A DNA stretch of 64,000 nucleotides, taken from NCBI GenBank assembly GCA_020466095.1, contig CM035806.1:95529919-95593918 (forward strand), in the 5' to 3' direction. This document shows positions 1-57,060 of this stretch, one piece after another. Position numbers and translations under genes: made by a program. The notes beneath the pieces are model-generated. The model saw only the letters and a list, made by a program, of their open reading frames with translations. It did no database searches and was not told where the DNA came from. Every line of letters begins with the position of its first letter. Within the stretch, counting starts at the first letter, position 1. The DNA comes from Chlorops oryzae. Lineage: Eukaryota > Arthropoda > Insecta > Diptera > Chloropidae.

Positions 1-2430
1 TTTTTTTTGCATTTATTTATAGCTTGGGTAGTTGTGAATATGCCCCTAAGAGGATTTTTTGAAATTCGAAATAGCTTAGAGGATATAGCCTTCTTTGTCG
101 AGCCAGATCTGCGCTAAAACGAGTAATTTTTGCGTTGCTTCAAACTTTAAACGCGTTTATCTCGAAACCACGTTTTTCGAACTGGCGGCCATGATATCTC
201 CAGTTCAACTGAACCGATTTTCATGAAACAAAGTGGAATCGACGCAGAATTGTCACCATTCTCGGGTGAACCTCGACCATAATTTTAAAAAATTGTTTAC
301 TATTTTTTTTTTTACACTAAACTACAAAAAAAAGCCCGAAATTGAAATTTTTTTTTGAATGGCCGCCATTTTGTCAAAAAAAGTCACAAAATTAAGCTTG
401 AGGTTAACCCGAGAATTACATCTACACTGATTATAACCCCGTTTTTTTTCCATTTCGGACGCTCCGGAGACCCGGAATCGTGGCCGCCGTGACGGCACCT
501 TTTTTTTTCACCACCAACTTTGAAGTCTCATTACTTTTTGAACAGCCCACGTATCGAGGCAAAAAAAATTTTTTTATTTACTTTGAACATTTTGTAATAC
601 AATAAATAAAAAAAGTTTTCAATTATTCTTTGCGTTTTCAAATAAGAATTTTTTTAAAAAGGGTCCAAAAAACGGGTTTTCAATGAGAAGACCCCCTTAA
701 CATATTTTCCATGGTCTAACATTTTTCATAACATTTTTCGGCAAGTTTATTTAACATTTTCTTAACATTTTTTGACCTTAGTATTTAACATTTTATGGAG
801 TCTCTAGTTATGACCTTTCGGCAGTTCAAAACAGACGAAAAAATCGAAATGAAAGATTTAATTCTTCAAAATTGTAACTATATGACTTTACTAAACGAAT
901 GTTGCTAGTGCTGAAGTATGTACATTGTATATTCATACACATACCTACATTCATTCAAACTTTTCACACAATTTTGCTAATGCACACCATTGAATAAAGC
1001 GAAACCCCCAGTGAAATGCCATAAAATTAATTGAATTAAATAACATAATTGCACGGAACAGGATTAAGAATTATTTGCGTCCCTTCGTGCCTTCGTCAAT
1101 CCCATATATTGAGAGTGGTGGTGTGATGTGCTGACATCGGTGATTGAATTGAGTTGAAAACGAACGACCAATCAAAAGCATTCTTACCAGAGAAACAAAA
1201 ACCGTTTATCGTTGCGATTGGTCGTCATCGCAGTAAGTAGGACATCACGAGATTTTCAATTGGCTGGGAGCTAATGGCATTTATTTATGGACCCTCTGCA
1301 TTGGCATTTTTAACTGTGGGTCTCCTGCCAATGTCGCTTCCGTCTCCGTCTCCGTCTCCACCCATTAAATTTGTAAGCAAATTAAACTGGTAATTGAGTT
1401 TAATTGAATAACTTATCTTCTTAGACAAACTGATTTTTTAAGTGACAGGCAACACCTTCGTCGCTTTCTACCATTCCTTGCTTACCTCGCTACTTATGCT
1501 GCCACAAAGGCCAGTGCGTTTTAATTCAGTTGTTGTTTGACAGTTGTTGTGTTCAGTGTTGATAGTAGAAAACGAGTGTCTTTTAAGTGATATTTTTTTT
1601 TAAGTAAAAAATTGAAAAGAGGTATACAAAAATAAAAGTCGTGTTAAGTGTAAAAATTCTACTGCATTATGTGATGTTCAGCAATATGATTATGACATTA
1701 AAATTGTTTTCAACCCGAAAATAGATGTCTTAATAAAACAAAATTTTATACCTACATATGCAGAATATAAATATGTGCTTGGATAAGAGAAGCCTAATTG
1801 TTGCGACAGGTATTTTCGGGAGCTCTAACGGACTTACTTCTACAATATTTTTCTGCCACTCAAGAATGTGTATTGCTTGAGTAAAAAAAAATCCACGAAT
1901 TTTCAGTGCTGCAGTTTTTAGACCTAGAAAATTTTGGAATTGCATATATTTATTCCTCTTCAGATTTCCATAAAATTGATCGAATATAGTTTAAAAAACT
2001 ATTAAAAAAAAAACACGTTCCAGTCCTGGCGAACCTAATCACAATAATTACATCTTTGACAATTTTTTTATTTTTTATTTATTTTATTAAGCCGTAAAAA
2101 CATACTTAGAGTTAAAAAAGAAAAAAATAATATACAAGAATATGGCAAGGCCTTAATTCTATAACTTAGGATGTTAGCAAAGCAGGGACCCGAAATAATA
2201 ATTATTGAAATTTCAGATTTTAAAAAAGTTGCCTCTACTTCGAAGAAAATTTTTTTAATTCTTTGTATAACTTTTACAAATTCAAAAAATTCAATAAGTC
2301 TTTCCATAACTTTTTCTTTCCAATTTTTGGTTTTTACGTTTCTTAATAACTTTTATTTTTATCATGAGAAGTTTTTACGTCTTTGAAAATTTTGATTGTT
2401 GAATTTTTATTCGCGTCACTTGTAATAAAC
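1..2430. other. Unassigned AT-rich DNA, no gene seen
   Basis: I see no ORF with family-like sequence here. Bases 1-840 have many A/T runs mixed with GC-richer blocks such as tggccgccat, a texture common in old insect repeats, but I cannot find the ends of an element. Bases 900-1560 look like ordinary single-copy intergenic DNA, with a short CCGTCT run (three copies near 1340-1360). The short ORFs at 1730-1945 and 2068-2386 are low-complexity and have no recognisable domain. Confidence 0.5.
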
Positions 2431-2432
2431 TA

Positions 2433-2600
2433 CCCTGCAGTAATATGGACTGACCTAAGTGTAGCCTTCGGTCAGTCCTTCATGTTACCAGTACTAGTCC
2501 CTTCATAATTCCACTTCTAATGTATTCAACTGACCTTTTTAACATGGGCCTGTCCTAGGGGAGGGACTAGTCCGCAAAACGGCTGATCATAGGCCAGTTT
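2433..2600 (+). repeat. Terminus of a CCCTGCAG-type MITE, other end not found
   Basis: The stretch starts with CCCTGCAGTAAT, the same 12 bases that start the repeat units at 16255 and 16911, and is close to the CCCTGTAG end at 41811. The interior is rich in GGACTGACC / GGTCAGTCC and ACTAGT motifs in both orientations, as in those relatives. No clear partner terminus was found, so only one end is annotated. Confidence 0.4.
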
Positions 2601-3110
2601 TTTTGGTGTCAATTGTCGTAATTTTGTCTGGTTTTTGGATAGTCAAATGAGGAAAATAAACAACAAATTTCTTATATATTATATATTCTAAGTTGATGAA
2701 AGTGCCATTTACTGACTACCCATAAACTAACCTCTTTATGACAATGCATGAATATCCCAACTAGCAAAATAGGTCGAAAATTGGTTATCTCTTACCCATT
2801 TTAGGTCAGAATATTTCGTTGACCTAACCTAAATAGGGCATAATTACGTCTGTACGACGTCGATTCGTCCTTCCGTGTATTACCGTCCATTGGCTGACGA
2901 CGTAAACTATTTTTCTTCAAACATAAAACTTCTAAGGCAATTAGAAAAAAATTTTCCTCTTATAAAAATTTGAAAAGACGTAAAAAATATTTCTCAAAAA
3001 CAAAACTTATTTTTCAATTAATAAAATTTTTTCTCATTCATAATAGTTATATGAAAATCTAAAAATATAAAAATTTTTTTAATAATTATGAAATTAAGTT
3101 TGTTGTATGC
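2601..3110. other. Unassigned AT-rich DNA
   Basis: No gene, RNA or clear repeat boundary seen. The last ~25 bases before the hAT-like element at 3119 (from about 3090) recur at 6563-6590 and are part of the duplicated host sequence described separately. Confidence 0.4.
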
Positions 3111-3118
3111 ATATGCAT

Positions 3119-6087
3119 TAGGGTGGGTCGTTCTTATATGAAAAAAAAAAAGTTGTATGATCGCGTTGGAATAGTAAAATTATGTTTCCTTATGTATAAA
3201 AAATAATTTTGTGTAAAAAAAAAATTCAAAATAAGTTGCATCTTCATACCGCGCAAGCGGATTGAAAGTTGGAAACAAAAATTTATATGAGATATATGAG
3301 ATATGAGTCGGAAAAACTTCAATGATAAAATTTAGAATTTCTCAGCTTTAATCTCATTTTTTAAATACATTATGTTCCCAGATATTTTTGGTCATAAAAC
3401 TATCTTTCAAAGGAAAGCAACGAAACTACGATCGACAAAAATTTTACGGAGATATGGTCGAAGAAACTCAGACCTGAGGAAATTTCTCCAAGACATGCCA
3501 AAAATGTGTTCGAACCTATCAATTTTGTAATCATTTGGAAGAAGGCATATTGCCATTTCAAAAAAATCTTCCTCGAAGAAAATCGGTTATTTCATAAGGT
3601 TGTTATAACAATTTATATATTTATCTATTTATCGGTTTCATTTCAGAACGTGCCCTGAAAAAAAGTCCACGAAAGTTTAAAATCCTTCTACTTGAGCTCG
3701 AACAGGAAAAAACAACGCTCAATTACGATTATAGATTTTTTAAATCGGTTCACAGAAACCAAAGTTACACGGCTTTGAAATTGGACAATTTATTATTTTT
3801 TAAATCCTGTGTTAGTTAAAAAAAATGCCGAAAAGTATACTACATTTTTTTTTGATTCGATAATGAGCTCATGTTTGGGAAAAATACAGAGATTTCCGAT
3901 TTAACGAGCTCAATGTTGCCAGCACTTCTCGTTAAATCGAATTTCTCGTTAAATTGAGTACCATCATAAAATCGTTTTTTTGCTTATTGTAAGAGATTAA
4001 AATTATAAATTGGGCTTATAAACAATTTTTTATTTCAAAAGAATTATTATAACAAAAAAAAAAAAAAAAAAAACATAACTCTTCATTTTGGTTCATATTA
4101 AACATATACATAACGTCTATGTAAACAGAGTAAAAAACTAATGAGATCACGTTTTGTTTAAATTATAAAATACATAGGTAATATGGGGCATTCTTTTATA
4201 AACCGAACAAAAAAAGGGGGAAAATTAACCTAGGTCTTTTCAATTGCGCGATATTTTTTACAGCTTCTAGATATGAAATTATTCAACATGTAGTCCAAAA
4301 TATTTCTCAGAATGCTTTATTTATGGAAGACCGTTAGTTTAAAGTTTGCTGCGTTTTCGTTTTTTAACAAAAATTCAAAGAAAATTTGATGAATTGAATT
4401 GAGAGTTTACTGTCAAAGAGTAATGATGATAAGTAAACAACTGCAGTGTTGCCAGTAGAAAAATATATTTTTGCGTTAAAAAAGGGGGAAGGATTTGAGA
4501 AATCTTTTGCTTGATTACATGGCGAGTCTGATTTATACCAGACCTGTAGCAATCCAACTTCCCCCGGGTGGGGCAAAGAATTTTCCACAAATTTTTCCTT
4601 TGAATTTTCGTAATTCCTTCCACCTAAGACCAAGAATCGTGGTGGGAAAGGCCCCTCCTAGCCCCTAGGTTGGTACGCGACTGATTTCTACTAACGTATG
4701 CTTACGTGGGGATTAAAAAATTGACATCACTGAACAACTGTGCACAATTAAAGCGGTAAGTCCAACAGCGCCTGCGCTTTTTCGATTTCATGCAGGTCAT
4801 GCAAAATTGAACATTACTTTTCATACATTGACTGCTTGCGGCAGTTGGCGCAGCACACGCGCTTTTAGACTCCTCGCTTAACTATTTCTTGGATTCCTCT
4901 TTGTTTCCCTTTATGCTTTTTCACTGATTTTTTATGTTGCTCGCTAAACCGAGTGCACAAAAAAATTTTTGTGCCATTTTGCTCGTTATATAAGATACTC
5001 AATGGAACGAATTTAAATGCTCGTTAAATGCGAAACTCGCTAACGCGAATACTCGTTAAATCGGAAATCTCCTGTATATAGCAAAGTCAACTTACTTCAA
5101 CTTTAAACCGCTTGGGAGGCTCAAAAATTCAGCATTGCTTGACTTTTTTAATCAATAAGTATTAATTCAATACTCTTGTAAATTGTGGATGTAGGAGGCA
5201 TTTCTCCAAACCAACCCTCTAGCTACGCCCGCTTTTTAAAATTTTGTAAATAAGCTCAAACTGAAAATTTAATCAAAATATCACATATATACAAATAGAT
5301 CAGTTTTCGTGATTTTCATAACAGACGATTGTACTGGAGGATATATTTTTCCCAAAAATGAGCTCATTATCGAATCAAAAAAAAAAATGTAGTATACTTT
5401 TCGGCATTTTTTTTAACTAACACAGGATTTAAAAAATAATAAATTGTCCAATTTCAAAGCCGTGCAACTTGGTTTCTGTGAACCGATTTAAAAAATCTAT
5501 AATCGTAATTGAGCGTTGTTTTTTCCTGTTCGAGCTCAAGTAGAAGGATTTTAAACTTTCATAGACTTTTTTTTCAGGGCACGTTCTGAAATGAAACCGA
5601 TAAATAGATAAATATATAAATTGTTATAACAACCTTATGAAATAACCGATTTTCTTCGAGGAAGATTTTTTTGAAATGGCAATATGCCTTCTTCCAAATG
5701 ATTACAAAATTGATAGGTTCGAACACATTTTTGGCATGTCTTGGAGCAATTTCCTCAGGTCTGAGTTTCTTCGACCATATCTCCGTAAAATTTTTGTCGA
5801 TCGTAGTTTCGTTGCTTTCCTTTGAAAGATAGTTTTATGACCAAAAATATCTGGGAACATAATGTATTTAAAAAATGAGATTAAAGCTGAGAAATTCTAA
5901 ATTTTATCATTGAAGTCGGAAAAATCTCATATAAATTTTTGTTTCCAACTTTCAATCCGCTTGCGCGGTATGAAGATGCAACTTATTTTGAATTTTTTTT
6001 TACACAAAATTATTTTTTATACATAAGGAAACATAATTTTACTATTCCAACGCGATCATAGAACTTTCGTAAAAACGACCCAGCCTA
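3119..6087. mobile_element. hAT-like DNA transposon with ~750-bp inverted repeats
   Basis: The ends are inverted copies: TAGGGTGGGTCG at 3119 and CGACCCAGCCTA ending at 6087. The inverted arms run about 3119-3886 and 5335-6087 with high identity. Flanking ATATGCAT is present at 3111-3118 and 6088-6095, an 8-bp target duplication. The empty site exists in this window near 6583-6595, where the host sequence has a single ATATGCAT, which confirms the boundaries. A TAGGG start and 8-bp duplication fit the hAT superfamily. No transposase was recognised inside; the centre is occupied by a pogo-like MITE. Confidence 0.8.
3887..5074. mobile_element. pogo/Tigger-like MITE nested in the hAT-like element
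   Basis: The left end CAGAGATTTCCGATTTAACG at 3887 matches, inverted, the right end ctcgttaaatcggaaatc..cctg ending at 5074. Both are flanked by TA (3885-3886 and 5075-5076). A TA duplication, a CAG start and a TTAACGAG-type inverted repeat are typical of pogo/Tigger members of the Tc1/mariner superfamily. Further CTCGTTAAAT blocks lie inside near both ends (3925-3960, 5015-5060). No transposase ORF was recognised; the ORFs at 4364-4633 have no family features. Confidence 0.65.
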
Positions 6088-8479: not shown

Positions 8480-9014
8480 CAGTGGCGTGTCCAGAGAAAT
8501 ACTGCTTTGATAGTGCTTATATTTTCCACAGTGGTATATTGAACAATTATAAGACATTAACTCAAAAAATGTTAGGGGGGGCTAGAGGAAGTTTAGAGAG
8601 TTATGGACTAAAAACCAAAAACATCCGAAAAATTTATGGCGTCCGATTTGGATGAAAATTTATATATAGAATAAGCGAAAAATGCTTAGAATTTTGGCGT
8701 CAAAATTTTTTCAAGAAACCGATTACAACTAGTCTAGTAAGGGTCTAGTTCCAAACTGGTCCAGAAAGGACCAGTTTTTTGAAAAAATTTTAGTGCTAAA
8801 ATTCTTAGAATTTTTCACTTATTCTATATATAAATTTTCATCCAAATCGGGACGCCATAAATTTTTCGGATTTTTTGGTTTTTGGTCCATAACTCTCTAA
8901 GCTTCCTCTAGCCCCCCCCCCAAAATTTTTGGGTTAATTTCTTATAATTGTTCAATATACCACTGTGAAAAATATAAGCACTATCAAAGCAGTATTTCTC
9001 TAGACACGCCACTG
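8480..9014. mobile_element. Foldback hAT MITE with 8-bp target duplication
   Basis: The element starts CAGTGGCGTGTC and ends in the inverted equivalent (GACACGCCACTG), flanked by CATTTCGG at 8472-8479 and 9015-9022. CAGTGGCG ends and an 8-bp duplication are hAT hallmarks. Nearly the whole element is an inverted repeat of two ~250-bp arms meeting near 8745-8775 in a GGTCCAG-type inverted centre, so a transcript would fold into a long hairpin. It has no coding capacity. The ORF at 8449-8655 lies on one arm and is not a gene. Confidence 0.9.
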
Positions 9015-10937: not shown

Positions 10938-11708
10938 TAAGGGCCAATATTACCAAGCATATTTAAAAAAATTTTAAAAATAAAATCCGATTTTCATTTT
11001 CACCACCGAAATTTTTAAAATATTTTTAAAAAAATTTTAAACTACCTCAGCAGGTCGTTTAAGTTTTTTTAAAGATACGGTAACAGCCCTGTTTTGGGCG
11101 GTAGAAAAACAGCTGATTACGTTCATTCTAAAATTTTTCGGAAAAAATCTGCGCAAAACGAAACAAGCAAAGCTTTAAATTTATGGATTCGGATTACAGC
11201 GATATGAGACTAATGAAAAATCGTGCGCACACGGCTCCATGCTCTAAAATAATATTTCAATCATTCGTGAATTTGACTGACTACCCTGACAGTGGAGCGT
11301 GCTGCCACATTTTGCTATACTTAAAAAAGTTGCATATTGAAAATGAAATTTAAAATAAAAAAATTTTTAGAGTAGTGAATTTGAGTTACAAGTTACAACA
11401 ACTGACACGGACGTGTGTTCTTTGTGCTCCTAGAAAAGTAAACAAAAACAATAACCCGGTGTAAACAAACGTTTCGGAGTATAATTACCTGTTGCCTAAA
11501 TCGAACGGAGTTCGTTGTCGCGTTGTCCGGCTCGCGAACTTTGTGCGTGGATCAGTTTCCGATTTTAAAAATTCGAAATAATTTAATTCAAGGGCTTGGA
11601 AACCCAAGGAGCTGTCTGTCCTGCTCGCGTTTTTAGACAGTTTGGCTCGAAAGAGACAGCTGGTAGTTGCTTCATATCAGCTGTCAGCAGCGCTACCAGA
11701 CTTCCATC

Positions 11709-13085
11709 ATGCCAATAAATCGGTCGCCGCCTCCGCTTAGCTCAGGCACAAACCATTCTACCAGCCATCCCGTAAGAGATGCCGCCTCAAAGTTGAACGA
11801 AATAATAGCAGATAAACTAAACCCCTCGGGCTCAGCTAATAATCTACCAAAATTAGTTTTTGAAAGACAACGCTCCAATTCAATTAGTGAAGTCACTTTG
11901 AATCAAAGATACTCTTCGGTTTCAACCACTCCTGACCCCAAATCAACTCAGATGCCGAAAAAATGGTCTGTGGTGAAAAACACAAAACGATCTAGAGGTA
12001 GCCCTCAACAAATGAAAGTAGCCAAACAGCAAAAGCTAAACTATTGGCTTAGCAATTCAAATCAATTCAATGTTCTTTCCGTTGATGATGGCGAAAATAC
12101 CGTAACCAACGAAGTGATTCAAGAAGAAAAAACACCTAAGCCCCCGCCAATTTTTGTCGACAAAGTCGAAAATATTCATCCCCTCTTAGAAATGCTAAAT
12201 GAGTTCGAAAGAAATAACTATGAAATTAGAGTTATCTCAGCTAGTCGAGTTAAGATCCTGCCGAAAACCCCGGACGCATTCTCTAACATTGTTAAAATGC
12301 TTGAAAAGAAAAATACCGAGTTTTTTACATATAAACCAAAAAATGAGAGAAGCTTTAAAGCTATACTCCGAAACATGCATCCATCTGTAGAACCAGATGA
12401 AATAAAAAATGCTTTAAGAGAGCACGGTCACTGCGTAACAAATGTCTGGAACATGAGACACTCGCAAACTAAGAAGGCTTTTCCAATGTTTGTTGTTGAA
12501 CTAGAACAAAATACAAATAACAAGGAGATTTACAACCTTAAATCACTACTAAACAGCCGTATCTCATTTGAGCCTCCTCATCCTAAGCGTGATCTTCCTC
12601 AATGCTCGCGATGCCAGCTGTACGGCCACACAAAATCGGGATGCCGAAGGCAACCAAAATGCATTAAATGTGCGGGAAACCATATATCTGCAGAATGTCA
12701 AAGGAAAACTAGATCTCAAGATGTGAAATGTGCACTCTGTGAGGGAAACCATCCTGCAAATTATAAAGGTTGCTCAATATATAAAAAACTCAGATCAGCT
12801 GCTTATCCACCATTAAGACAAAAAAATATGCTCCCTAACAACAACATCGTTTCTCAAAATGCCCACCTACCTCAGCCATCTCGATTGTTTCCGAACTCAC
12901 ATCAGCCTACCTACGCCCAAATGGTGAGTGGCGTCCCAAATCAAGCTCCAAAAAGCAAAGAAAGCGATGACCTAATAAGCGAAATGCGCGACATGATGAA
13001 ACTCTTAAAAGATGTTATGAGCCAAATTACTGCGATGACCAATCTGCTTGTTAATCTTGTCACAAAAAATATGTCATGTCAATAA
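11709..13085 (+). CDS. LINE ORF1: Gag-like RNA-binding protein, three CCHC knuckles
   Basis: This is the ORF1 protein of the Jockey-clade element, 458 residues from the ATG at 11709 (MPINRSPPPLS). The frame is open upstream to 11667 but has no earlier ATG. Residues 1-150 are low-complexity, serine/proline/lysine-rich. The middle (about 165-290) is the expected nucleic-acid-binding fold region. At about 299-355 there are three zinc knuckles: CSRCQLYGHTKSGC, CIKCAGNHISAEC and CALCEGNHPANYKGC, the arrangement seen in Jockey, TART and HeT-A Gag proteins. A C-terminal amphipathic helix-like stretch (SEMRDMMKLLKDVMSQIT) may mediate self-association. These proteins bind element RNA and escort it during retrotransposition. 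The stop overlaps the ORF2 start by 10 bp, implying reinitiation or a similar mechanism for ORF2. No frameshift or stop is present. Confidence 0.9.
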   Translation: MPINRSPPPLSSGTNHSTSHPVRDAASKLNEIIADKLNPSGSANNLPKLVFERQRSNSISEVTLNQRYSSVSTTPDPKSTQMPKKWSVVKNTKRSRGSPQQMKVAKQQKLNYWLSNSNQFNVLSVDDGENTVTNEVIQEEKTPKPPPIFVDKVENIHPLLEMLNEFERNNYEIRVISASRVKILPKTPDAFSNIVKMLEKKNTEFFTYKPKNERSFKAILRNMHPSVEPDEIKNALREHGHCVTNVWNMRHSQTKKAFPMFVVELEQNTNNKEIYNLKSLLNSRISFEPPHPKRDLPQCSRCQLYGHTKSGCRRQPKCIKCAGNHISAECQRKTRSQDVKCALCEGNHPANYKGCSIYKKLRSAAYPPLRQKNMLPNNNIVSQNAHLPQPSRLFPNSHQPTYAQMVSGVPNQAPKSKESDDLISEMRDMMKLLKDVMSQITAMTNLLVNLVTKNMSCQ

Positions 13086-15745
13086 ACCTTGCATTATGGA
13101 ATGCTAATGGACTGTCACACCACATTCAGGAATTAAAACTATTTTTAACTGATAATAATATAGACATCTTGCTAATCTCAGAAACGCATTTTACAAATAA
13201 AAGCTTCTTCAGGATCCCAGCTTACTGCTTCTACCACACAAATCACCCTGACGGCTCTGCTCACGGTGGATCAGCTATCCTTATAAAAAACAAAATTAAG
13301 CATCACGAGTCTGTTCACTATAAAACGAAAGAGATTCAAGCAACAAATGTGCTCGTTGAGGATTTTGATGGCTCACTTCTCATTTCCTCTATATACAGCC
13401 CCCCAAAGCATAACATAAAAAAGGAGCTATATACTAAGTTCTTCAAAACACTATGCCATCGTTTTTTAGCTGGTGGAGACTACAACGCGAAAAACATCGT
13501 ATGGGGATCTCGACTCACAACGACAAAAGGTCGCAAGCTACTTAACTCAATTAACGAACTGAAGTTAAAAGTTTTTTCTTCCGGAGAACCCACATACTGG
13601 CCATCAGATCCGAACAAAGTTCCAGACCTCATAGACTTCTGCGTAACAAAAGGGCTACCAAACGTAACCTGCAAATCCAGCCTTGAGCTCTCATCCGACC
13701 ATTCGCCCGTTCTTATATCAATAAGTAACAAACTTCAAAATGCTACTAAGAAAAGTCACATTTCGAACAGCCGTACAAATTGGACCTATTTCAGAACAAT
13801 TTTGTCAACAGCTTTAAACAAAAATTTTCCATTAAAGGATGAAGATGACATCGTCGAGGCTACCGAACATCTGATAAGGAAAATACAGGAAGCAGCCTGG
13901 GAATCCACTCCAATATCAACACCTAACGCTCAGAAATGTAAGACACAAAATAATTTAATAGCTGGCAGATCCCGAGATAAACGACAAATGCGAAAATTAT
14001 GGCAGCGTACAAGATCTCCGGAACACAAACGTTACCTTAATAAAATTACAAAAAATTTAAAGAAACTACTTTTGCAACAGAAAGATCAGGACGTGAAATA
14101 TTTTTTGGAAAACCTAGACGCCACTCATCTATCAAACTATTCCCTTTGGAAAGTTTTTAAAAAAACAAAAACCAAAATCGACTTCCGAGCGCCACTGCGA
14201 AAGCCTGACAGCTCTTGGGCAAAGACTCCAATGGAGAAATCTGAGCTCTTTACTGATCACCTCAAAAAAGTGTTCTCTCCGCACAGTTTCGCGGGTGGTC
14301 CTATTACAGATGCGAAGGTCTTTGCTTACCTAGATGAAACCCACCAAATGGAGTTGCCGACTAAAAGAGCATCTAGAAACGAAATAATTGCTATAATAAA
14401 AAAACTTAAACGTCATAAAGCTCCCGGATATGATTTCATCACTAGCAAAGTACTACAAAATCTTCCGACTGAGGCACTAAATTTTATCACACATTTGTTC
14501 AACGCTTGCCTCACCAAAAACGTTTTTCCAGCGCAATGGAAAGTTGCTGAAATCAAAATGATTCCAAAGCCAGGAAAATCATGCGAAGATGTTAAATCTT
14601 ATCGACCTATAAGTCTCCTTCCCATCTTGTCAAAAGTGTTGGAAATTTTATTTTTGAAACGCCTCCTACCTATCATTGAAAGTAGGAAAATCATCCCAAA
14701 TCACCAATTCGGATTTAGAAGGAAACACTCCACAATAGAACAAATTCACAGGATCGTTGAAATAATTCAAACGGCATTCGATCAACATGATTACTGCTCT
14801 GCTGTTTTCTTGGATATTTCACAAGCATTTGACAGAGTGTGGCACCAAGGACTTCTGTTCAAATTAAAACAAATGCTCCCGCTGAATATGTATCTCTTCA
14901 TCAGATCCTATCTTTCACACCGATTTTTTTACGTAAACTGCGAGGAAGAGATGTCTACTTTTCAAAAAATTGATGCTGGCGTCCCGCAGGGTAGTGTACT
15001 GGGTCCAATTCTCTACCTGCTCTATACTCATGACCTTCCTACTACAGAAGGCCTCCAAACTGGTACTTTTGCTGATGACACCGTCATCATCACAACTGGG
15101 CCAGAACCAAACGAAGTGTCACTAAAACTTCAAACCGGACTTGATGAAATATCTGCTTGGCTAAAGAGTTGGCGACTAAAAGTAAACGAACTAAAGTCAA
15201 CACATGTTACGTTTACAACGCGGAAAAAAACATGCCCCCAAATAAAATTAAACGGCATCGAAATTCCTCGCTCTGAGAGTGCCAAATACCTGGGTATGCA
15301 TCTGGATAGGCGACTCACATGGAAGGAACATATCTTCACCAAAAGGAAAGCCCTGGGCATTCAATTTCGGAATATGTATTGGCTACTAAATCGCAAATCA
15401 CCTTTATCAGCGTACAATAAACTTCTCCTATACAAATCCGTTCTCAAACCCGTATGGTCCTATGGAATTCAATTGTGGGGAACTGCCGCAAACTCAAACC
15501 TAGAAATCCTCCAGAGATTCCAATCAAAAACGCTACGCATTTTGGTTGATGCTCCTTGGTATGTGACCAATGCCCAAATTCATCGCGACCTGCGCGTACC
15601 ATTCGTTAAAGATGAAATCAAAAGGCTAACTACCAAATATCGAGATCGTCTTCAATCCCACCCAAACGAACTGGCTTCCAAGCTGATGTCTCCATCAAAA
15701 TCCTTTAGAAGACTAAATAGGAAAACACCGCTGCAGCTTATTTAA
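13076..15745 (+). CDS. LINE ORF2: APE endonuclease and reverse transcriptase
   Basis: 889 residues with no interruption. Residues 1-215 are an apurinic-type endonuclease: N9 in LWNANG, E36 in ISETH, the GGDYNAKN motif at ~136 and the SDHSP motif (D208, H209). Residues ~440-720 are the reverse transcriptase with SYRPISLLPILSKVLE, FLDISQAFDRVWH (catalytic D580), AGVPQGSVLGPILY and FADD at 665-668 (two catalytic aspartates; F replaces the commoner Y). Thumb and C-terminal parts follow (KYLGMHLDRRLTWKEH). Length and order match the Jockey clade, which has no RNase H. The enzyme nicks target DNA and primes cDNA synthesis from element RNA in the nucleus. The start overlaps ORF1 by 10 bp in another frame. 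All key residues are present, so the protein is probably functional. Confidence 0.93.
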   Translation: MSINLALWNANGLSHHIQELKLFLTDNNIDILLISETHFTNKSFFRIPAYCFYHTNHPDGSAHGGSAILIKNKIKHHESVHYKTKEIQATNVLVEDFDGSLLISSIYSPPKHNIKKELYTKFFKTLCHRFLAGGDYNAKNIVWGSRLTTTKGRKLLNSINELKLKVFSSGEPTYWPSDPNKVPDLIDFCVTKGLPNVTCKSSLELSSDHSPVLISISNKLQNATKKSHISNSRTNWTYFRTILSTALNKNFPLKDEDDIVEATEHLIRKIQEAAWESTPISTPNAQKCKTQNNLIAGRSRDKRQMRKLWQRTRSPEHKRYLNKITKNLKKLLLQQKDQDVKYFLENLDATHLSNYSLWKVFKKTKTKIDFRAPLRKPDSSWAKTPMEKSELFTDHLKKVFSPHSFAGGPITDAKVFAYLDETHQMELPTKRASRNEIIAIIKKLKRHKAPGYDFITSKVLQNLPTEALNFITHLFNACLTKNVFPAQWKVAEIKMIPKPGKSCEDVKSYRPISLLPILSKVLEILFLKRLLPIIESRKIIPNHQFGFRRKHSTIEQIHRIVEIIQTAFDQHDYCSAVFLDISQAFDRVWHQGLLFKLKQMLPLNMYLFIRSYLSHRFFYVNCEEEMSTFQKIDAGVPQGSVLGPILYLLYTHDLPTTEGLQTGTFADDTVIITTGPEPNEVSLKLQTGLDEISAWLKSWRLKVNELKSTHVTFTTRKKTCPQIKLNGIEIPRSESAKYLGMHLDRRLTWKEHIFTKRKALGIQFRNMYWLLNRKSPLSAYNKLLLYKSVLKPVWSYGIQLWGTAANSNLEILQRFQSKTLRILVDAPWYVTNAQIHRDLRVPFVKDEIKRLTTKYRDRLQSHPNELASKLMSPSKSFRRLNRKTPLQLI

Positions 15746-24357: not shown

Positions 24358-24477
24358 TAAGATATATGAATAATTTTTATCTTTCTTCCTTTTCGTGCTT
24401 AGAAATTAACATTTGCAAGCTTATTCATTCGGTTTTATTATACTTTTATATATATATATATATTATATTTAGCGACG

Positions 24478-25506
24478 CACAGTGGTTTATTTGTGGAAAA
24501 AATGCATTTTTTGAAGTACCTTATTCCAATATTTGATGTTTTTATCTGAGTTAAGCATTGTTTCAATAAGAAGAATTCATGATATTTTTTTCCGAAAAGG
24601 AAATTTTTATCCTCAATAAAGTTATTGAAAGTCAGAAAACATTTTTTCACCTAAAACCATGAAAATATTGGTTATATAAAGCAACATTTTTTTCTTATTA
24701 TATTGTTTTGATGGCTCCTTTTGTTGGTTTAATATGAAAAAGTAGAATTTTATCGTCAAAATATAACAAAAATTAAATCAATCCATAAAGAATTTTTGAA
24801 GTTATGAGCAATGTAACAGGCAGCTTTCTAAACATCAATTTTCCGCCTTTTATGGACAAAAACTTAGTTACCTTTGTTTACCTTTGTGCTCTACTTATAT
24901 AAAAATGAAAGGTTGAGATGTCGTCTTTCAATATCTGAAAGAAATTTCTGCCGACAGCTGCCTACCAGTGAGTTATTCCAATTTAAATGAAAAAATACTT
25001 GCAAAAAAAATTGTGACAGAGTCTCTACGAATGAAGACGTTTTCTGTCGGTTATGACAACTTCGGATCCTTATATTACTTTTATAAGACGTCAACCCTCT
25101 AAAAATACCTTGGAATTAGATCCGGTCGTAATTGAAATGATAGCCGAATAAATTAAAAATTGTATTTCTTATTTGCAATAATTTCAAGAAGTTGTTCACA
25201 TTTAGGGAATGGTGGTGGGGAATTCAGTTGTGGGTGGTGGGCGTGGCCGATTTCGATGGAACTTTCAGAATGTGTTTATATTGTCGTATTTAAGGTTTGT
25301 GTATAATTTTATGACAATCCGAGCAAAAATAAAAGTTTTATATGCAAAAAGATTTTGGTGGTGTATGGGAGGTGGGCGTGGCCGATATGGATGAAATTTT
25401 AAAATTTTCTTAACTTCACCTATAGCAATGGGTGTACCAAAATTCATTGCTCTACAACAACTCCTTCTATTTTTTTCCAAAAAATATATGAAGCCAAACC
25501 ACTGTG
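24478..25506. mobile_element. Non-autonomous Transib-like element with RSS-like 12/23 ends
   Basis: The element begins CACAGTGGTTT (24478) and ends AAACCACTGTG (25506). The flanks are CGACG (24473-24477) and CGATG (25507-25511), a 5-bp GC-rich target duplication with one change. The tandem copy at 27701-27720 has the uninterrupted site TTTAGCGACGTAGTTG, which proves the insertion. Left end: heptamer, 12-bp spacer, A-rich AAAAAATGC (24497-24505). Right end, read inward: heptamer, 23-bp spacer, AAAAAAATA (25476-25468). The right subterminal sequence (tagaaggagttgt) is shared with the Transib element at 51885. No transposase ORF remains, so it must have been moved in trans. Confidence 0.85.
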
Positions 25507-25507
25507 C

Positions 25508-25785
25508 GATGTAGTTGCCCCAATAGCGTTGTAATTTTTAGTTAGGTCCAAAGTCAGTTCACCGAAAGAGGATATCACGGTTTTCAAACCTTAAAAAAAT
25601 TGGAAAATTTGTCACATTTCGATACAAAATTCTCATAAAAAAATGTACAGTTAATTTCCCATATTGTAAAATTTTCAAAACTGAATTTATTTAATATTGA
25701 TATTATTTTTATTGTAATTGATTCTGATTCATAACACAATCTGCAAGGGTCTCCGATTGCATAAGTATGCAATTGGTTGCAATTA
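25508..25785 (+). repeat. Tandem-duplication right segment, first copy
   Basis: Near-identical to 27712-27985; both run from gtagttgccccaatagcg to ggttgcaatta. It shows where the duplicated block ends. Directly after it, element X2 begins at its terminal base. Confidence 0.85.
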
Positions 25786-43270: not shown

Positions 43271-44952
<1,682 letters not shown>

Positions 44953-45348
44953 ATGGGCCGTTTACAGGAGTTCTAATGAACGAAGCAATTGTAAAAAATA
45001 CCAATACTTTAGACTGGTGGCGAGCAATAGATAGCATGAAAAAATGCATAACGGAACAAGAATTCAAAATAATAGAACAACTGTGCACCGTAATCGCTTC
45101 TTCCGCCGGGGTGGAGCGAGTGTTTTCTGCATTAAATTTGGTGCACAGTAAAATCAGAAACAAACTGGGTACAACAAAAGCTGGGAAGCTCGGATTTTTA
45201 TTGAAAAATCTTAATTGATGTATGAAATCTCTTTATTAAAATGTCAATGAATAAACTTTAAAAGCTTGCTGTGATCTGTCTTATCTAATTGAATTTAGCC
45301 CAAAATACAAATCATGACTTAAATCAAAAAAACCCGATTTAAATAAGA

Positions 45349-49775: not shown

Positions 49776-50095
49776 CATATTTGGGGAATTCCACGTGAAA
49801 ACGACAACTTTTTTTTGATGTCTCCGAATCTCTCCAATTTGTTTTGTATAGCACCTCTATACGTGTACATGAAAATGCCAAATTTGTAGCTTCGAAAATT
49901 ACCGGGTGATCTAGATACAGGGTTCTGAAGTTTGCAAAATTGCAAAATTTTGATTGAAGTTAGTAACACTTAAATGCTTATAAGGTAGTCAAATTTCATT
50001 AGATTTTTTTTTTTTAACAAGAGCAATTTGGAAAGCCGTTAAAACGGTCTTTCATAGGGTGGCAAAAACAACTTTTTTTTTTGTAACTGCATTAT
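49776..50095. other. Unassigned spacer
   Basis: AT-rich stretch between the hAT right flank and mini-me-like copy d. Nothing recognised. Confidence 0.4.
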
Positions 50096-50227
50096 TTTTA
50101 TACCTTTTCCGAAGGAAAGGGTATATTAAGTTTGGCACGGAGTATGTAACATACCAAAGGAGTCGCGATAGATATAGACATATATATATATTCTTGATCA
50201 GGGTGACAAGAGGAATCGATCTAGCCA

Positions 50228-50283
<56 letters not shown>

Positions 50284-51227
50284 GGTCACACTTTAGTTTT
50301 TCGTAATTTACTCCTAAGCCATGAAAGATATCATATTGAAATTCGGCATGGACATGAACCAGGTAAATGTCCGAAAAACTGCATACAAATTTTTTTCGTG
50401 GGTCCCTTCTTGGGTCGTGGGAAGTGGTTCAGAAGTTTCAAAAATCATGATTTTTAACGTTTTTCGTTGATAACTTTTTTACTTTCCATCCCAGCTTATT
50501 GAAATTTGGTGTGTGTATAGCTACCATGTAGACTTAAGCTTTCGCTGAAAAAAAATTGCGACATCGCTATAACTATGGTCATCATCCTACACATTAGAAA
50601 AAAACACTCTTTTTCTTATTCTCATATCTGTATACAAAAATGATTTTTTTTGCTTCGTCCGATTGTGTATTTTGCCGCCAAATAAAGTCGTCACATAAGA
50701 TTAAAATTTGACCATGACCACCATTCGCGAAATTCGCGAAAATTTGATTTTCACTATTTTGAATTGAGTATTTCGCAGCATAACAAAATATCCTCTAAGG
50801 GTTAAAATTTGATCAAGACCACCATCCGCGAAATTCGCGAAAATTTGATTTTCACTATTTTGAATTGAGTATTTCGCAGCTAAACAAAATGTCCTCTAAG
50901 GGTTAAAATTTGATCAAGACCACCATCCGCGAAATTTGCGAAAATTTGATTTTCACTATTTTGAATTGAGTGGTTCGCTGCTAGACAAAATGTCCTCTAA
51001 CGGTTAAAACTTGACCATGCTCACCATCCGCGAAAATTTTCTGCTTAATAATAATCTCGAGTTTTAGAAGCTAAATCGAAGAACAGATAAGGTATAAATA
51101 GATATCCAATCTAGAACAACGAAAACGGCAGGAATTTTTGTTAAGGTAATGTTTTAACATATTTCAGGCTGAGGAAAAGGTATGTGTGCAATCGGCTTAG
51201 CCGATGTAAACTTCTTTACTTGTTTTT
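50096..51227 (-). mobile_element. mini-me/DINE-1-like element, family 1, copy d
   Basis: Minus-strand copy: 3' hairpin at 50100-50130, (TGTC)14 at 50228-50283, three ~101-bp repeats near 50710-51020, and the 5' end ACAAGTAAAGAAGTTTACAT at about 51227. Almost identical to copy f (62260-63387), including private changes such as gtggttcgctgctagac. Confidence 0.85.
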
Positions 51228-51613: not shown

Positions 51614-51884
51614 GCACATGCTAATTTTATTATTTTATTGTACCTACATCTACTTACTTCAATTCCTACTTATATAATATCCTGTAGCCACTTGCCAAAG
51701 GTCTTTCATTTAGTTATAAAAACCAACTTTTGAAATAAATTCTTGTTTATTATGATTGGTTTTACATGTTTACGGCACTTCCCATATGTATGTACTTTGA
51801 AATTCAAAAATATTAACGTGACCAGATTCAGTGGCGGCACTAGACCAAATATGAGCGTCGGCGAAATTAGTTTGCGAGGCCCCG

Positions 51885-51923
51885 CACAGTGTGCCGACTC
51901 CATACATTGCTTGGCCAAAAATA
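51885..51923 (+). other. 23-type RSS-like end of the Transib element
   Basis: Heptamer CACAGTG (51885-51891), spacer 51892-51914 (23 bp), nonamer-like CCAAAAATA (51915-51923). The heptamer is identical to the vertebrate consensus; the nonamer consensus is ACAAAAACC. Presumed transposase binding and cleavage site, cut just before the heptamer. Confidence 0.8.
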
Positions 51924-52689
51924 GAAGGAGTTGTCGTAGAGCAATGAAATTTGGCATGGAGGTTTATTTTTATAAAATTAAGAAATTTTGAAAAAATTGT
52001 AAAAATCCGACCACCCCAACCCCCACCCCCCATGTAAAGGGGGGAACCAAATTCCGCAATTTTTGTCCTACAGACTTGAAATTCGGAGCAGAGCTTAAAT
52101 TCATGCTCTAAAATTGGAAAAATTTAACTTGGGTGGGCTGCCACGCCCACTTTTTGTGCTACGCCTACTCAAAGTTGGGTGATACAGGGGTAATGAACCC
52201 CCTGCAAATCGTATAAAACTTTTATAAAAATTGATGAATTTCAATTTAATTGTAAAATTCAAACATGTTTTCAATAGAAAAATTTAAAAAGACTAGCCCA
52301 GCCTTGCCAAAGAAAAAAAAGCGAGGTGGAAAAAACAGTGAATTTCAATGTATAAATCTCATATATTTGATACTGACGCTTACGTTATTCTTGAATTGTA
52401 GAGCTTTTTTATTTGATAAATTTCAAAGGAATAACTCACAATTAAATTTATTTGCGTTTTTAACGTTCATATAAGGTGTAGTAAAAAGATATATAGCTTA
52501 TTAAGCCATATAAAACTTGTAGTTATAATGCATATATCATCTAAATTAAAGAACAAAGTATTATTTGAAAGGTAATTAAGTTGAGTTTATTCTATTGGTT
52601 TTTTTTTAAGAGATATTAAATTTTTACTTATGCGTTTTTAAGTGCAGCTATGTATACATATACATTTTTATTTAAATTTATTCTAAGAT

Positions 52690-53384
52690 TTAATCATCTG
52701 AAGAGCTGCAGTTAGAATCTTCCGATAAAAAGTCTTCCATATCTATTTCTAAAGAAGAATCCGAATCCGTTTCATCTTTTTGTTCTACCAAAATATATGC
52801 TTTAATTTCTTCATTGGAGATCTTTCCTTTTTGCTTCAATTTTCTATATTTTGAAATAAGTGGCTCCGAAGACAACAGTAAATTTTTTAAAACGTCTCTG
52901 TTATCTGCCTCTCTGGAACATTTACGGGCTTTTTGCAATCTAGCATATCTGAATTCCTTATGCCGAGCCTCTAGTGCATCTTCCGACAGCATACCGATTG
53001 GGAGGGGAAAATGTTTTATAATGTCAATGCCATGACACAGAACTTTATGCACTGTAACTGGCATATAGTACCAGTCATACAGTGTGATATACAAACTATA
53101 TGTATTGTTTAGCAAAATACTAAATGTTTCAATATTTATAGCTGCACCACATGACAACACTTTTAAAATTGAAGCGAAATTTTTTATTAAATTAATATCA
53201 ATATCTGTAATTTTGAAAGAAATTTCAGCGTTATTGAAAAATTTTCTTGCTGTATTTCCGTCATTTGAGGTTCCATATCCTGTTCTGACTTTATCCACAA
53301 TCAAGCCCAACTCAGATCTGAATAGACTACAAATTTTACTCTTTTTGCGTTTTGTTTTTATACCATATTCTGCTATAGTTTATA
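52690..53384 (-). pseudogene. Transib/RAG1-like transposase, C-terminal part
   Basis: The minus-strand frame is open from about 53384 to the stop at 52690 (about 231 codons), with no good start codon, so it is the 3' part of a longer gene. Landmarks in order: ELGLIVDKVRTGYGTSNDGN, then GNTARKFFNNAEISFKITD, SCGAAINIETF, YDWYYMPVTVHKVLCHG, LPIGMLSEDALEARHKEFRY, ARKCSREADNRD, LLLSSEPLI, and an acidic tail ending SSSDD. This series is characteristic of insect Transib transposases, the family related to RAG1; the acid in LSEDA-EAR is the presumed third catalytic residue. The region carrying the first two catalytic aspartates is not recognisable upstream, so the copy is inactive. Confidence 0.85.
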
Positions 53385-54414
53385 TATTGCTAAATACTTA
53401 ATTATATTTAGTGTTGACAACCACCTTAAATTATAACTAATAATGTTAAATAAGTTAAACTTCAACATTTTAGCCGTTGTGTTTGAATATACGCTTTCGA
53501 ACTGTGTTCAATTGTTGGTAATTAGTGCATTTCCGCCTGTATTTTGGACCTTTACGAAAACTTGTATAACTCCGAAATCGCAACGAATTTTAATATAATT
53601 TTTTTTTTATTTTTAGAAGATATCATAGGCAATAAAATATCAAAAAATTGAGGAGGTCATTTTTTTTTTAATTTTTTAAAAATCTTTTGAAATTTGCATA
53701 GTTTTTGCATTTTTCCCAATATTTTTACCTATTTCACATGCATATTTTTACATTGTTCAATAGAAACATTAACAAAAACAATATAAATTATTAAATTTTA
53801 GGGTTTTTTCTTTCATACAATATATATTTTGTATAAACTTATTTGCAAAATTTCCTGGTATTTGTTTGTATGTGCAATTAATAATTTTATAACCTAATTT
53901 TAGTGCTCCATAACATGGAACATAAATCCGAAATCGCAACAAATTTGTTGAATTTTAACTTTTTTTTATGATAAGCGCCTATTACTTAATAACATATAAA
54001 ATAATTAGAGAGGTCATATTTCGCATAATTTTTTTTTTCAATTTTGAAATTCTGTGAAATGTTAAATTTTTCAGTATTTCACATATTTTTTTAACAGTAA
54101 TAATATTTTGTATATAATAATAATTTATATACACGAATACTTTTTTATGATTGTAAATAAGCTACACTTCAATTTGATATATGATACTTGGGTATTTATA
54201 GTTGTATACTTACTCTTTATTCGATTTGAACCCGCGCATATGCAATAATTGTGCAAAACAACAAAAGTTCACATTTTGCATAAGACAACTTCAAAGGCGT
54301 GTTGTGATCGCAAAACTAAAGATATCGGCAAGAAAATTTGGGAATTTCTAATTCAATGTATTCTTTAAGAATCCATAAAAAAAAATTATTCAAAATCTGC
54401 ACTTTTATTTTTAC

Positions 54415-54442
54415 TATTTTTGGCCGCACTCGGCACACTGTG
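54415..54442 (-). other. 12-type RSS-like end of the Transib element
   Basis: On the minus strand: heptamer CACAGTG (54442-54436), spacer 54435-54424 (12 bp, TGCCGAGTGCGG), nonamer-like CCAAAAATA (54423-54415), identical to the nonamer of the other end. Confidence 0.8.
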
Positions 54443-54455
54443 CCCCGCCCCAAAA

Positions 54456-57060
54456 TAGGGATGGCCACTTTTAAAAAAAACCCGGTTTCTTCTTAATCGG
54501 AGTTTTTTGATCCGGTTTAAAACCGGATAAGAAAACCGAGCTCAAACAACCGGTTTGTCGAAAAACCGTAGAATAAAGCTGGGTATTGCAAAAATCTTAA
54601 TCTAAACGCTTTAAAGTGTAAATCCAGTCTTTGTTTCTTTCCGTAATTTCATTTGATATTTGGCAGTACTGAAATCCATAATTCGGTTTTTTTTTTTTTA
54701 ACAATCGACTAATATGCCATTCAGAAGAGCACCGAAATCCCGGGATTTTGGCACTTGGATTTCGTGAAATCCACATCGAAATTCAAGCGTTTACACGACA
54801 ATATCGTGGACAATATCGACTTGAGAGGATTTGGTTTGACAGATATTTCTCTGTTTGCAGTGCTGCCAATTGTAGGGAAATTTCCTTAAAAATTTTAAGG
54901 GAATTTTTTTAAACAAAATATCCCTTGTAGGGCCAAAAGGACAGATTTCTTTAAATCGCTAAATGTACGGAATTTGTGATGTTTTCCAAAATATTTAATA
55001 AATTTTGTACAGAGAGCCAAAACTGCCTAATAGATTCAAGAAGATTTTCTCTATGAAACGTTTTTAGGCTAAGGGGTACCCACCCAGCAGAAAGAAGAGA
55101 AGATTGTTCCAAAGAAATTCCTTATTATTTTAATGTGATAAATCTTTTAATTTTATCAAGAAGGGAAACACATGAAATCAAGAAGAAAACTAGTTATTCA
55201 CAATTTTTTGCACTCAATTTCAGTTATTTTTGGCACCAAAAAGACAATCCATAGAGAAACACTTCTTGATTCCATTAGGTTTTTATAGTGAGTTGTATTG
55301 AAAATGCAATTCTTATTGATTTCATTGGGATATCTTCTTGATTTTTTCAAAAAGGTATTCTTATTGATTTCATTAGGTTCCTGTAAGATTATGGGTAAAC
55401 AATCTTCTTAATTTTTTTAATAAGGAAAACCTTTTTGAAAAAATCAATAAGAATTAATAATAAAAGCAACAAGTTTTCTTCTTGACTTATTCAAAAAGGT
55501 TTTCCTTATTACAATAATGAGACAGTTTTCTTGAAAAAAACCATAGAGATATCTTATTAATTTTGTTCTTTTTTATTAGGTATTAAAGACTGTCCCAGAA
55601 ATAACTGTCCTTTTGTTTTTTTTTTTTTTTATTGCAAAAAAACTAATGATGTTTTTTTAAAAATTCTTTCAGTTTATTATTAAGTGAACATTACAAAATA
55701 AATAAAAATTTTAATTACACTGAAAAAAATACATTCAAAAAAAATTATTCACTTTTTTATTAAGGTCCTCCATTAGGTTTTTTACCGACCTTTCGTTCAC
55801 CTTAGTGTATGCCCGACGCCATTTATGTCGAAATATTTCGATGTTCTTCGCAGTTTGTTTGGTCTTCTTAAGGCTTCTTTTTATTTAAGCCCAATATTTT
55901 CCGATTGGACGAAGTTCGGGGCAATTCGGAGGATTTGCTTCTCTTGGTACCACAGTGACATTATTGGCTTGGTACCAATCCATCGTTCTCTGGGCGTAGT
56001 GAGATGTTGCTAGGTCAGGCCAAAATAGTACTGAACCTTGGTGTTGACGTATAAAAGGCAGCAAAAGCCGGTCCAGACACTCTCTGATGTGAATTTCGGT
56101 GTTGATTGTGCGATCCGTCACAAATTCCTTACTTCGAAGGTCACATTTGCAAATGCCCTGCCACACCATGTATTTCTTTGGAAATTTGGTATGTTTTTCG
56201 GTGGTAAATTTAAAGGATGCTCCACCCCTTCTAACCGCAGTATAATATCCGTGTCCAGGTAACTGCTTGAAATCCGCTTTGCAATACGTTTCATCGTCCA
56301 TGATCACGCAATCAAATTTTGGCAGGTAATCGCGATACAGTTTTCGAGCCCTCCTCTTGGCTTTGGCGTCCTTTTCTTCTGACCTATCAGGGACTTTTTG
56401 TACTTTATAGCTCCTTAGGTTGTAAAATTTTTTAATCCGTTGAACACTTGACTTCGATGTTCCCGCTTTTGCTGCCATATCACGAACTGAAGTGCCTGGA
56501 TTCTGAGTAAACAGCCGCTTAACGTTCTGGAGTTCCTGACTACCCTGAAAGATTCTCAAAAATATAAGCCTACCATATTCATGGCTACATTTTTGTATGC
56601 AAGAGGCATATTATTAAAAAAAATATAACGATATTTGTGGTAGGGAAAATCGTAATGAATTGTGGGAATTTTTGTTTAGTTTGTAGGGAATTTTTCGTTT
56701 GCGTGTGGCAGAATTGCAGGTTTGTTTACTTTGTTTTTTTCAGAATTTGACAGTAGTGTTGCAGCATTTCTTCGATACATATCGAAAAACACAGAGTTGC
56801 ATTCAGTTTATTCCGGATATCTCTTGGGATTTCGTTGAAATCCAATTTCTGAGCGGATTTCGTTTGACATTCATTTGTATGGGAAATACGCTAGATTTCG
56901 ACTGGATATCGGCTGAAATCCTCAAAAGTGCCCAAATCCCGGGGTTTCGATGCCGTCTGAATGCCATATAAAACCGCGTCTCCCAAAAAGACTGTTACCA
57001 GATAAAACCGAATATTTAAAAAACCGGTTTGTTTTTAAACCGGTTGTGTGCCCATCTCTA
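54456..57060. mobile_element. hAT element with internal Tc1/mariner relic
   Basis: TAGGGATGGCCACTTTT at 54456 and, inverted, TAGAGATGGGCACACAACCG at 57060. The flanks are CCCCAAAA (54448-54455) and CCCAAAAA (57061-57068), an 8-bp duplication with one difference. CCGGTTT/AAACCGG motifs and a second inverted block (cgaaatcccgggatttt / aaatcccggggtttcg near 54738 and 56933) lie inside. It starts three bases after the Transib target duplication. No hAT transposase; the centre holds a mariner-type pseudogene and a field of caagaag/aaggaaaac motifs (55020-55560). Confidence 0.7.
55760..56559 (-). pseudogene. Tc1/mariner transposase, DD37E type, catalytic Glu lost
   Basis: The minus-strand frame 56559-55885 gives 224 residues. 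An HTH part (VRDMAAKAGTSKSSVQRIKK, residues ~25-45) is followed by the DDE domain: first Asp in VIMDDETYCKADF, second in VLFWPDLATSHYAQ, and PPNCPELRPIGKYWA. Spacing from the second Asp to the expected Glu is 37 residues, but the codon there is GGA (Gly). GAA to GGA is a single transition. Directly after KYWA the frame meets a stop; the C-terminal continuation (RSLKKTKQTAKNIEIFRHKW) is in another frame down to about 55760, so there is a frameshift. The N-terminal first HTH is truncated. Terminal repeats could not be identified. Confidence 0.88.

Follow-up and report, generated by a model that had tools for sequence, protein, structure and literature searches.

The 12/23 rule of antibody-gene recombination pairs signals with unlike spacers, and an insect transposon whose two ends differ in the same way raises the question of whether that asymmetry is real and, if so, whether it is a property of the transposase or an accident of descent. 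Such an element lies at positions 51885-54442 of a 64,000-nt stretch of the Chlorops oryzae genome (contig CM035806.1; the whole analysed stretch is called the window below). A sequence-only reading of this DNA had described CACAGTG-23-CCAAAAATA at its left end, CACAGTG-12-CCAAAAATA at its right end and a perfect CCCCG target duplication. Direct reading of the letters confirms the ends and the duplication as first described, the five bases at 51880-51884 being identical to those at 54443-54447 (Table 1).

Table 1. Coordinates of the window element, its ends and a second Transib-like element (window positions)
Feature	Position	Strand	Basis
Second, diverged Transib-like element, 1029 bp	24478..25506		nonamer-blind search
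Target-site duplication CCCCG, left copy	51880..51884		direct reading and script match
23-type end: CACAGTG, 23-nt spacer, nonamer CCAAAAATA	51885..51923	+	direct reading, nonamer-blind search
Heptamer of the 23-type end	51885..51891	+	direct reading
Spacer of the 23-type end	51892..51914	+	direct reading
11-bp block CTCCATACATT, spacer positions 7-17, without counterpart in the 12-nt spacer	51898..51908	+	cross-lineage end comparison
Nonamer CCAAAAATA of the 23-type end	51915..51923	+	direct reading
Subterminal stretch inside the 23-type end, conserved between lineages	51924..51963	+	cross-lineage comparison
Transib transposase, C-terminal part, 229 aa	52690..53379	-	PDB 6pqn match, E 7.8e-43
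Second, weaker A-box GTAAAAATA, spacer distance 21, inward of the 12-type nonamer	54406..54414
12-type end: CACAGTG, 12-nt spacer TGCCGAGTGCGG, nonamer CCAAAAATA	54415..54442	-	direct reading, script
Nonamer CCAAAAATA of the 12-type end	54423..54415	-
Spacer of the 12-type end	54435..54424	-
Heptamer of the 12-type end	54442..54436	-
Target-site duplication CCCCG, right copy	54443..54447		direct reading and script match

Transposase remnant and Transib identity

The longest open reading frame within the element encodes 229 amino acids on the minus strand and aligns with chain residues 293-462 of the Hztransib transposase (PDB 6pqn); the aligned catalytic glutamate is present in this fragment, and the first two catalytic aspartates fall outside it. 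The fragment also matches 118 predicted proteins; where a source organism is named, it is an insect, with one mite as the exception. A Pfam search with the fragment returned no match. On the strength of the 6pqn and protein matches, the element is a Transib in which the transposase gene is reduced to its C-terminal part, and since this gene reads toward the 23-type end, the 12-type end is on the gene's 5' side. The Transib identity proposed in the sequence-only reading is borne out by the Hztransib match of the fragment (E 7.8e-43) and by that of a relative with an unbroken frame (E 1.3e-99). The traits of the superfamily are found here as well, namely a RAG1-related DDE transposase, GC-rich 5-bp duplications, and ends that start with CAC and contain an RSS-like heptamer.

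The relative, located at C2:48090922-48095163, is comprised of 4242 bp with CGACG at both flanks, and has a 12-type end 5' and a 23-type end 3' of a gene that is a 557-aa stop-to-stop frame. Besides its match to Hztransib, this frame gives a weak match to RAG1 (E 0.0054) and, in a Pfam search, a sub-threshold match only. The catalytic triad of Hztransib consists of D126, D225 and E436 (PMC6941560); the aligned residues of the 557-aa frame are D, D and E, the offset to the PDB chain being our own reading. The frame starts with KASTSKGRPR, and its first ATG follows some 55 residues later, where the Hztransib alignment begins, so that GRPR would be included in the protein only via an upstream exon. 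Transibs are described as keeping the GRP positions of the RAG1 nonamer-binding domain (PMC9435367), and GRPR was found in two of the 118 relatives of the window fragment, both of them beetle proteins. No other frame in this single element is longer than 149 aa on the plus strand or 123 aa on the minus strand, a spliced gene being possible. Two further long-frame loci were inspected: at C1:84998746 a 23-type end lies on the downstream side, with no 12-type end in the upstream stretch examined, and C3:87308832 has neither end in the stretches examined.

At least 159 Transib transposase matches are present in the genome, 150 of 1145 candidates having been scored. Some 30 of the listed loci, counted by hand, have open frames of at least 500 aa with no stop within the match; they share 41-59% identity with the protein of the window element, and all are located in this one genome. 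According to PMC4411706, autonomous Transibs are typically single-copy or few in number, and the many long-frame copies found here appear to be an exception to this usual low copy number.

Spacer pairs across the genome

The pattern CACAGTGN{8,28}CCAAAAATA has 781 matches in the 442-Mb genome, compared with 3 for the reversed control; these are pattern matches and not elements, some of them representing a 14-nt class inside another repeat. Among the 100 matches listed, the spacer is 23 nt in 45, 14 nt in 29 and 12 nt in 12, the remaining 14 being scattered across eight other lengths. The same 100 matches include four convergent pairs, in every one of which a 12 faces a 23 or a 22 (three with perfect duplications, one with a mismatch).

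The family of the window element, family A, was sampled with 21 copies: the element itself and L039-L058, which are 20 of the 39 other places listed. Both ends were found in 16 copies, and all 16 combine 23/12 spacers with a perfect 5-bp duplication, the right heptamer being TACAGTG in one of them. For the other five the partner search gave no credible partner; at one of these, L053, the 14-nt convergent end has the flank of a composite repeat.

Fourteen of the first 30 pattern loci served as 23-type anchors, chosen by their 23-type end only; together with three matches within convergent pairs, they make up the 17 that were followed among the 45 listed 23-type matches. A partner with a perfect duplication was found for eight anchors (L015, L016, L028, L036, L037, L038, L017 and L020), and all eight partners are of the 12-type, with a spacer of 12 in six and of 11-12 with a poor box in two (L016, L036). 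No partner was present within 3.5 kb of L009, L031 and L035 or within 1.5 kb of L019, L026 and L030, L019 and L031 having weak candidates only, with mismatched duplication and heptamer and without a box. Two same-direction copies of a 12-type end, L033/L034, likewise had no partner within 1.5 kb.

A further lineage has a longer spacer at both ends: one element (L016/L077) is 24/13 with a perfect CCATG duplication, and another (L063/L069) is 24/14 with a weak duplication matching at 3 of 5 bases. Pairs were found at two of the five places in the 24/28-nt group; L065 has no partner in about 4 kb, and the partner search did not include L064, which shares the flank of L065, or L066, which runs into Ns.

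The complete sample of 32 pairs consists of 16 from family A, eight anchors, two of the 24-nt lineage, the four convergent pairs, the second window element and the long-frame copy at C2:48090922-48095163. Compiled by hand and grouped by spacer sequence, without a tree, into about 11 lineages, it contains 27 pairs of 23/12, two of 23/11, and one each of 22/12, 24/13 and 24/14. The spacers differ by 11 bp in 28 pairs, by 10 in two and by 12 in two, and the duplication is perfect in 29 of the 32. Like-like spacer pairs number zero among these 32, in a sample whose ends were mostly found via CACAGTG/CCAAAAATA and which would therefore overlook families whose boxes are different or whose ends are symmetric. 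The sequence-only reading had left it to other copies whether a 12-type end always pairs with a 23-type end: unlike ends occur in 32 of 32, and neither random box distances nor 23/23 pairs, which would have made the pattern accidental, were seen among the sampled paired elements. The 12/23 asymmetry of these Transib ends is real.

Spacer substitutions and length changes

Conserved asymmetry within a family is not independent proof that the transposase depends on it, because both ends are copied together. An ancestor may simply have gained one longer spacer, after which the two ends were co-inherited by elements whose transposase has no need of unlike spacers. The subterminal sequence common to the sampled 23-type ends, from which it follows that the lineages share an ancestor, is consistent with this history, as is the fact that shortened copies keep both ends automatically. 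Set against it are the spacers themselves: minimum spanning trees of the distinct spacers, built after two outlying 23-nt spacers were dropped, require at least 71 substitutions in the 23-nt and at least 35 in the 12-nt class, yet over these at least 106 substitutions the difference is 10-12 bp in every one of the 32 pairs. In the 23/12 lineages two length changes were counted (L062 and L016/L036), or three if the spacer of the second window element is read as 11. Flies accumulate roughly one indel per eight or nine substitutions, and the smaller number of length changes seen here is suggestive of a constraint on spacer length. The 24-nt lineage, in which the short spacer is longer too (24/13 and 24/14, in two elements, one with a weak duplication), also argues against an accident fixed by descent, which we consider unlikely.

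Anatomy of the ends

The outer parts of both ends agree within an element and change together between lineages. Between the two ends of one element, 4.9 of the 6 outer spacer bases match, compared with 3.1 of 6 between lineages (permutation p 0.00075 for nine representatives, two from lineage B and two from lineage C, with lineages G, I, J and K absent). The spacer mostly finishes with GG at both ends. The long end additionally contains an 11-bp block, typically CTCCATACATT, with a conservation of 0.79 versus 0.61 for the outer six bases, and judged from these alignments the 23-nt spacer looks like a 12-nt spacer interrupted by this block, with the shared outer 13 bp on one side of it and the GG-nonamer on the other. 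Inside the 23-type nonamer (51924-51963 and equivalents) conservation is 0.79 over the first 20 bp and 0.58 over the next 20; the corresponding values inside the 12-type nonamer are 0.43 and 0.48. The stretch conserved at the 23-type end may serve as an additional binding site. The conservation of the nonamer itself is biased, since it was used to find most ends.

A second A-box lies about 9 bp further in, at a spacer of about 21, in the short ends of L015, L033, L038, L060-L062 and others. If the short end worked through this second box, the one at 12 being a duplicate, the elements would be nearly symmetric, 21/23. In favour of such an arrangement, a second box with at most two mismatches is present at spacer 19-24 in 8 of 16 short ends, and the second box of L015 and L038 repeats the first exactly in tandem. 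The box near 12, however, has at most two mismatches in 14 of the 16 and is strictly better than the second box in 14 and tied with it in two, a comparison that favours the box near 12 insofar as some short ends (C, D) were chosen by exact box. Moreover, no second box is recognisable in L037, L063 or the second window element, the best candidates showing six mismatches. We regard the near-symmetric arrangement as very improbable. Poor short-end boxes, with three mismatches at best, belong to the second window element and to L036/L016.

Blind searches and matches set aside

Ends were also searched for without reference to the nonamer, using a heptamer with at most one mismatch, a 5-bp duplication with at most one mismatch, an element length of 300-5000 and agreement of the first 10 bp of both ends with at most two mismatches. 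In the 64-kb window this search returned two elements, versus a mean of 0.2 in 20 first-order Markov sequences, and both combine a 23-type with a 12-type end. One is the element at 51885-54442; the other, diverged, has its 12-type end at 24478 on the plus strand (A-box AAAAAATGC, spacer readable as 11 or 12) and its 23-type end at 25506 on the minus strand (A-box AAAAAAATA), between CGACG at 24473-24477 and CGATG at 25507-25511, which differ by one mismatch.

Other features share the window. Two adjoining long frames of 472 and 896 aa at 11667-15745 are presumably the gag and the endonuclease/reverse transcriptase of a non-LTR retrotransposon, and a 241-aa frame at 55885-56610 on the minus strand is one that we take to be a mariner-type transposase. 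A repeat with a short tandem array occurs at 44672-45232 and 49984-50457, and also as an insertion in L042, a 3720-bp copy of family A.

A comparison made without any motif points to the same boundary. One family, whose transposase is 43% identical to the protein of the window element, includes two copies with 551-aa frames; on the downstream side of the match they agree at every position over 370 bp, until the shared sequence stops exactly at CACAGTG-23-CAAAAAATA, beyond which the flanks differ. This identity between differing flanks suggests recent movement of the copies. With the outer 13 bp of this family as query, only 23-type ends were found, besides one unrelated match.

The matches with a 14-nt spacer were considered as a third type of end and rejected, since they lie within a repeat of about 470 bp and are not free ends. 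Thirteen loci of this class were sampled (L010-L014, L018, L021-L025, L029 and L032, for example C1:1309028 and C1:4283501), with a spacer of 14 in 11, of 16 in one and of 22 in one; the outer flank is shared over more than 100 bp by 12 of them and over about 20 bp by L025. As far as the heptamer, their inner sequence agrees with that of the L063 short end, from which we conclude that the class descends from a genuine Transib end: a 14-nt short end was amplified inside the repeat, mostly with a conserved CCATG flank. Also set aside were L027 (spacer 22), with no partner within 1.5 kb, and, as unsupported, L067 (spacer 19), L068 (spacer 11) and C1:51654512 (spacer 28), the last of which has similar sequence at window position 8967 and in L019.

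Although AT-rich DNA can yield short motifs randomly and the 14-nt class of matches does sit inside another repeat, chance or an alignment artefact is already refuted for the 23/12 lineages by the excess of matches over the reversed control, the perfect duplications in all paired copies of family A, and the recovery of the ends without the nonamer together with the motif-blind boundary, and it retains a negligible probability.

Proposed mechanism

The reading that we prefer is that 51885-54442 is a shortened Transib with 23/12 RSS-like ends, probably moved by a transposase encoded elsewhere that pairs unlike ends. On the model of Hztransib and RAG, both ends would be taken up by a dimer of the transposase, which would nick the DNA at the heptamer and leave hairpins on the flanking DNA before inserting the element at a GC-rich 5-bp target site. 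In such a complex the RNase-H (DDE) core would cut at the heptamer and the N-terminal GRPR-containing stretch may read the A-box; the two ends would be held asymmetrically, their A-boxes having to differ by one DNA turn (10-12 bp). It is from the paired ends that we infer the enzyme's need for unlike partners. More tentatively, the Transib transposases of this genome might accept only pairs whose A-boxes differ by about 11 bp, at any absolute lengths and apparently without RAG2, a rule that we find conceivable without favouring it. If it were true, the 12/23 rule of vertebrates would reside in the RAG1-type enzyme itself, either inherited or evolved anew.

Comparison with known systems

The sequence-only reading implied that a 12/23 pair was new for an insect element, and in this respect it was anticipated: 12/23-asymmetric ends are in print for Transib5 of D. 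melanogaster and for Transib2, N1, N2 and N3 of A. gambiae (PMC8355894, citing Kapitonov & Jurka 2005). More broadly, all Subgroup I Transibs are reported to have asymmetric TIRs and Subgroup II to include both kinds (PMC9435367), and symmetric TIRs are attributed to most Transib families (PMC8289069). Like Transib5, Transib2 and N1-N3, the elements described here have a heptamer, a spacer and an A-rich nonamer, with spacers of 12 (+/-1) and 23 (+/-1) opposite each other. They differ from these, as compared by description only, in that the heptamers and nonamers are identical at both ends of 51885-54442 and the heptamer equals the V(D)J consensus, and in the presence within one genome of many lineages, long unbroken frames and a 24/13-14 lineage. 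Neither the 11-bp block nor a 24/13-14 lineage is mentioned in the portions of PMC8355894, PMC6941560, PMC8289069, PMC7204232, PMC9435367 and PMC4411706 that were available, subscription papers and Repbase being outside this scope. The kind of element is thus already known; what is added is the consistency of the asymmetry in one genome, the anatomy of the 11-bp block and a lineage with both spacers longer.

Hztransib of Helicoverpa zea has a homologous transposase, as judged from the E values for the fragment and the 557-aa frame given above; the difference lies in its TIRs, described as symmetric and as showing hardly any or no nonamer similarity (PMC8289069). The ProtoRAG/RAGL transposons resemble the present elements in their CAC ends, 5-bp duplications and RAG1-like enzyme, and the ends of ProtoRAG are also asymmetric; ProtoRAG differs in its 27/31 spacers and in being without a distinctive nonamer (PMC8355894). 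RAGL transposons carry RAG2L; in C2:48090922-48095163, the one element read for this purpose, no second frame exceeds 149 aa, a spliced gene being possible. The vertebrate V(D)J RSS shares the CACAGTG heptamer, an A-rich nonamer and spacers of 12 and 23, the difference being that the signals here flank a transposon and not gene segments. The nonamer CCAAAAATA, we believe, also differs from the RSS consensus.

Few 12/23 Transibs are named in the papers cited here, and the Chlorops oryzae genome keeps the asymmetry across many lineages. It offers an unbroken transposase frame with both its ends, as well as copies hinting at recent movement, and so makes it testable whether a RAG1-like enzyme without RAG2 insists on unlike ends, and whether its criterion is 12/23 or one DNA turn. 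The answer bears on the origin of the 12/23 rule in antibody-gene recombination and on whether that rule precedes RAG2.
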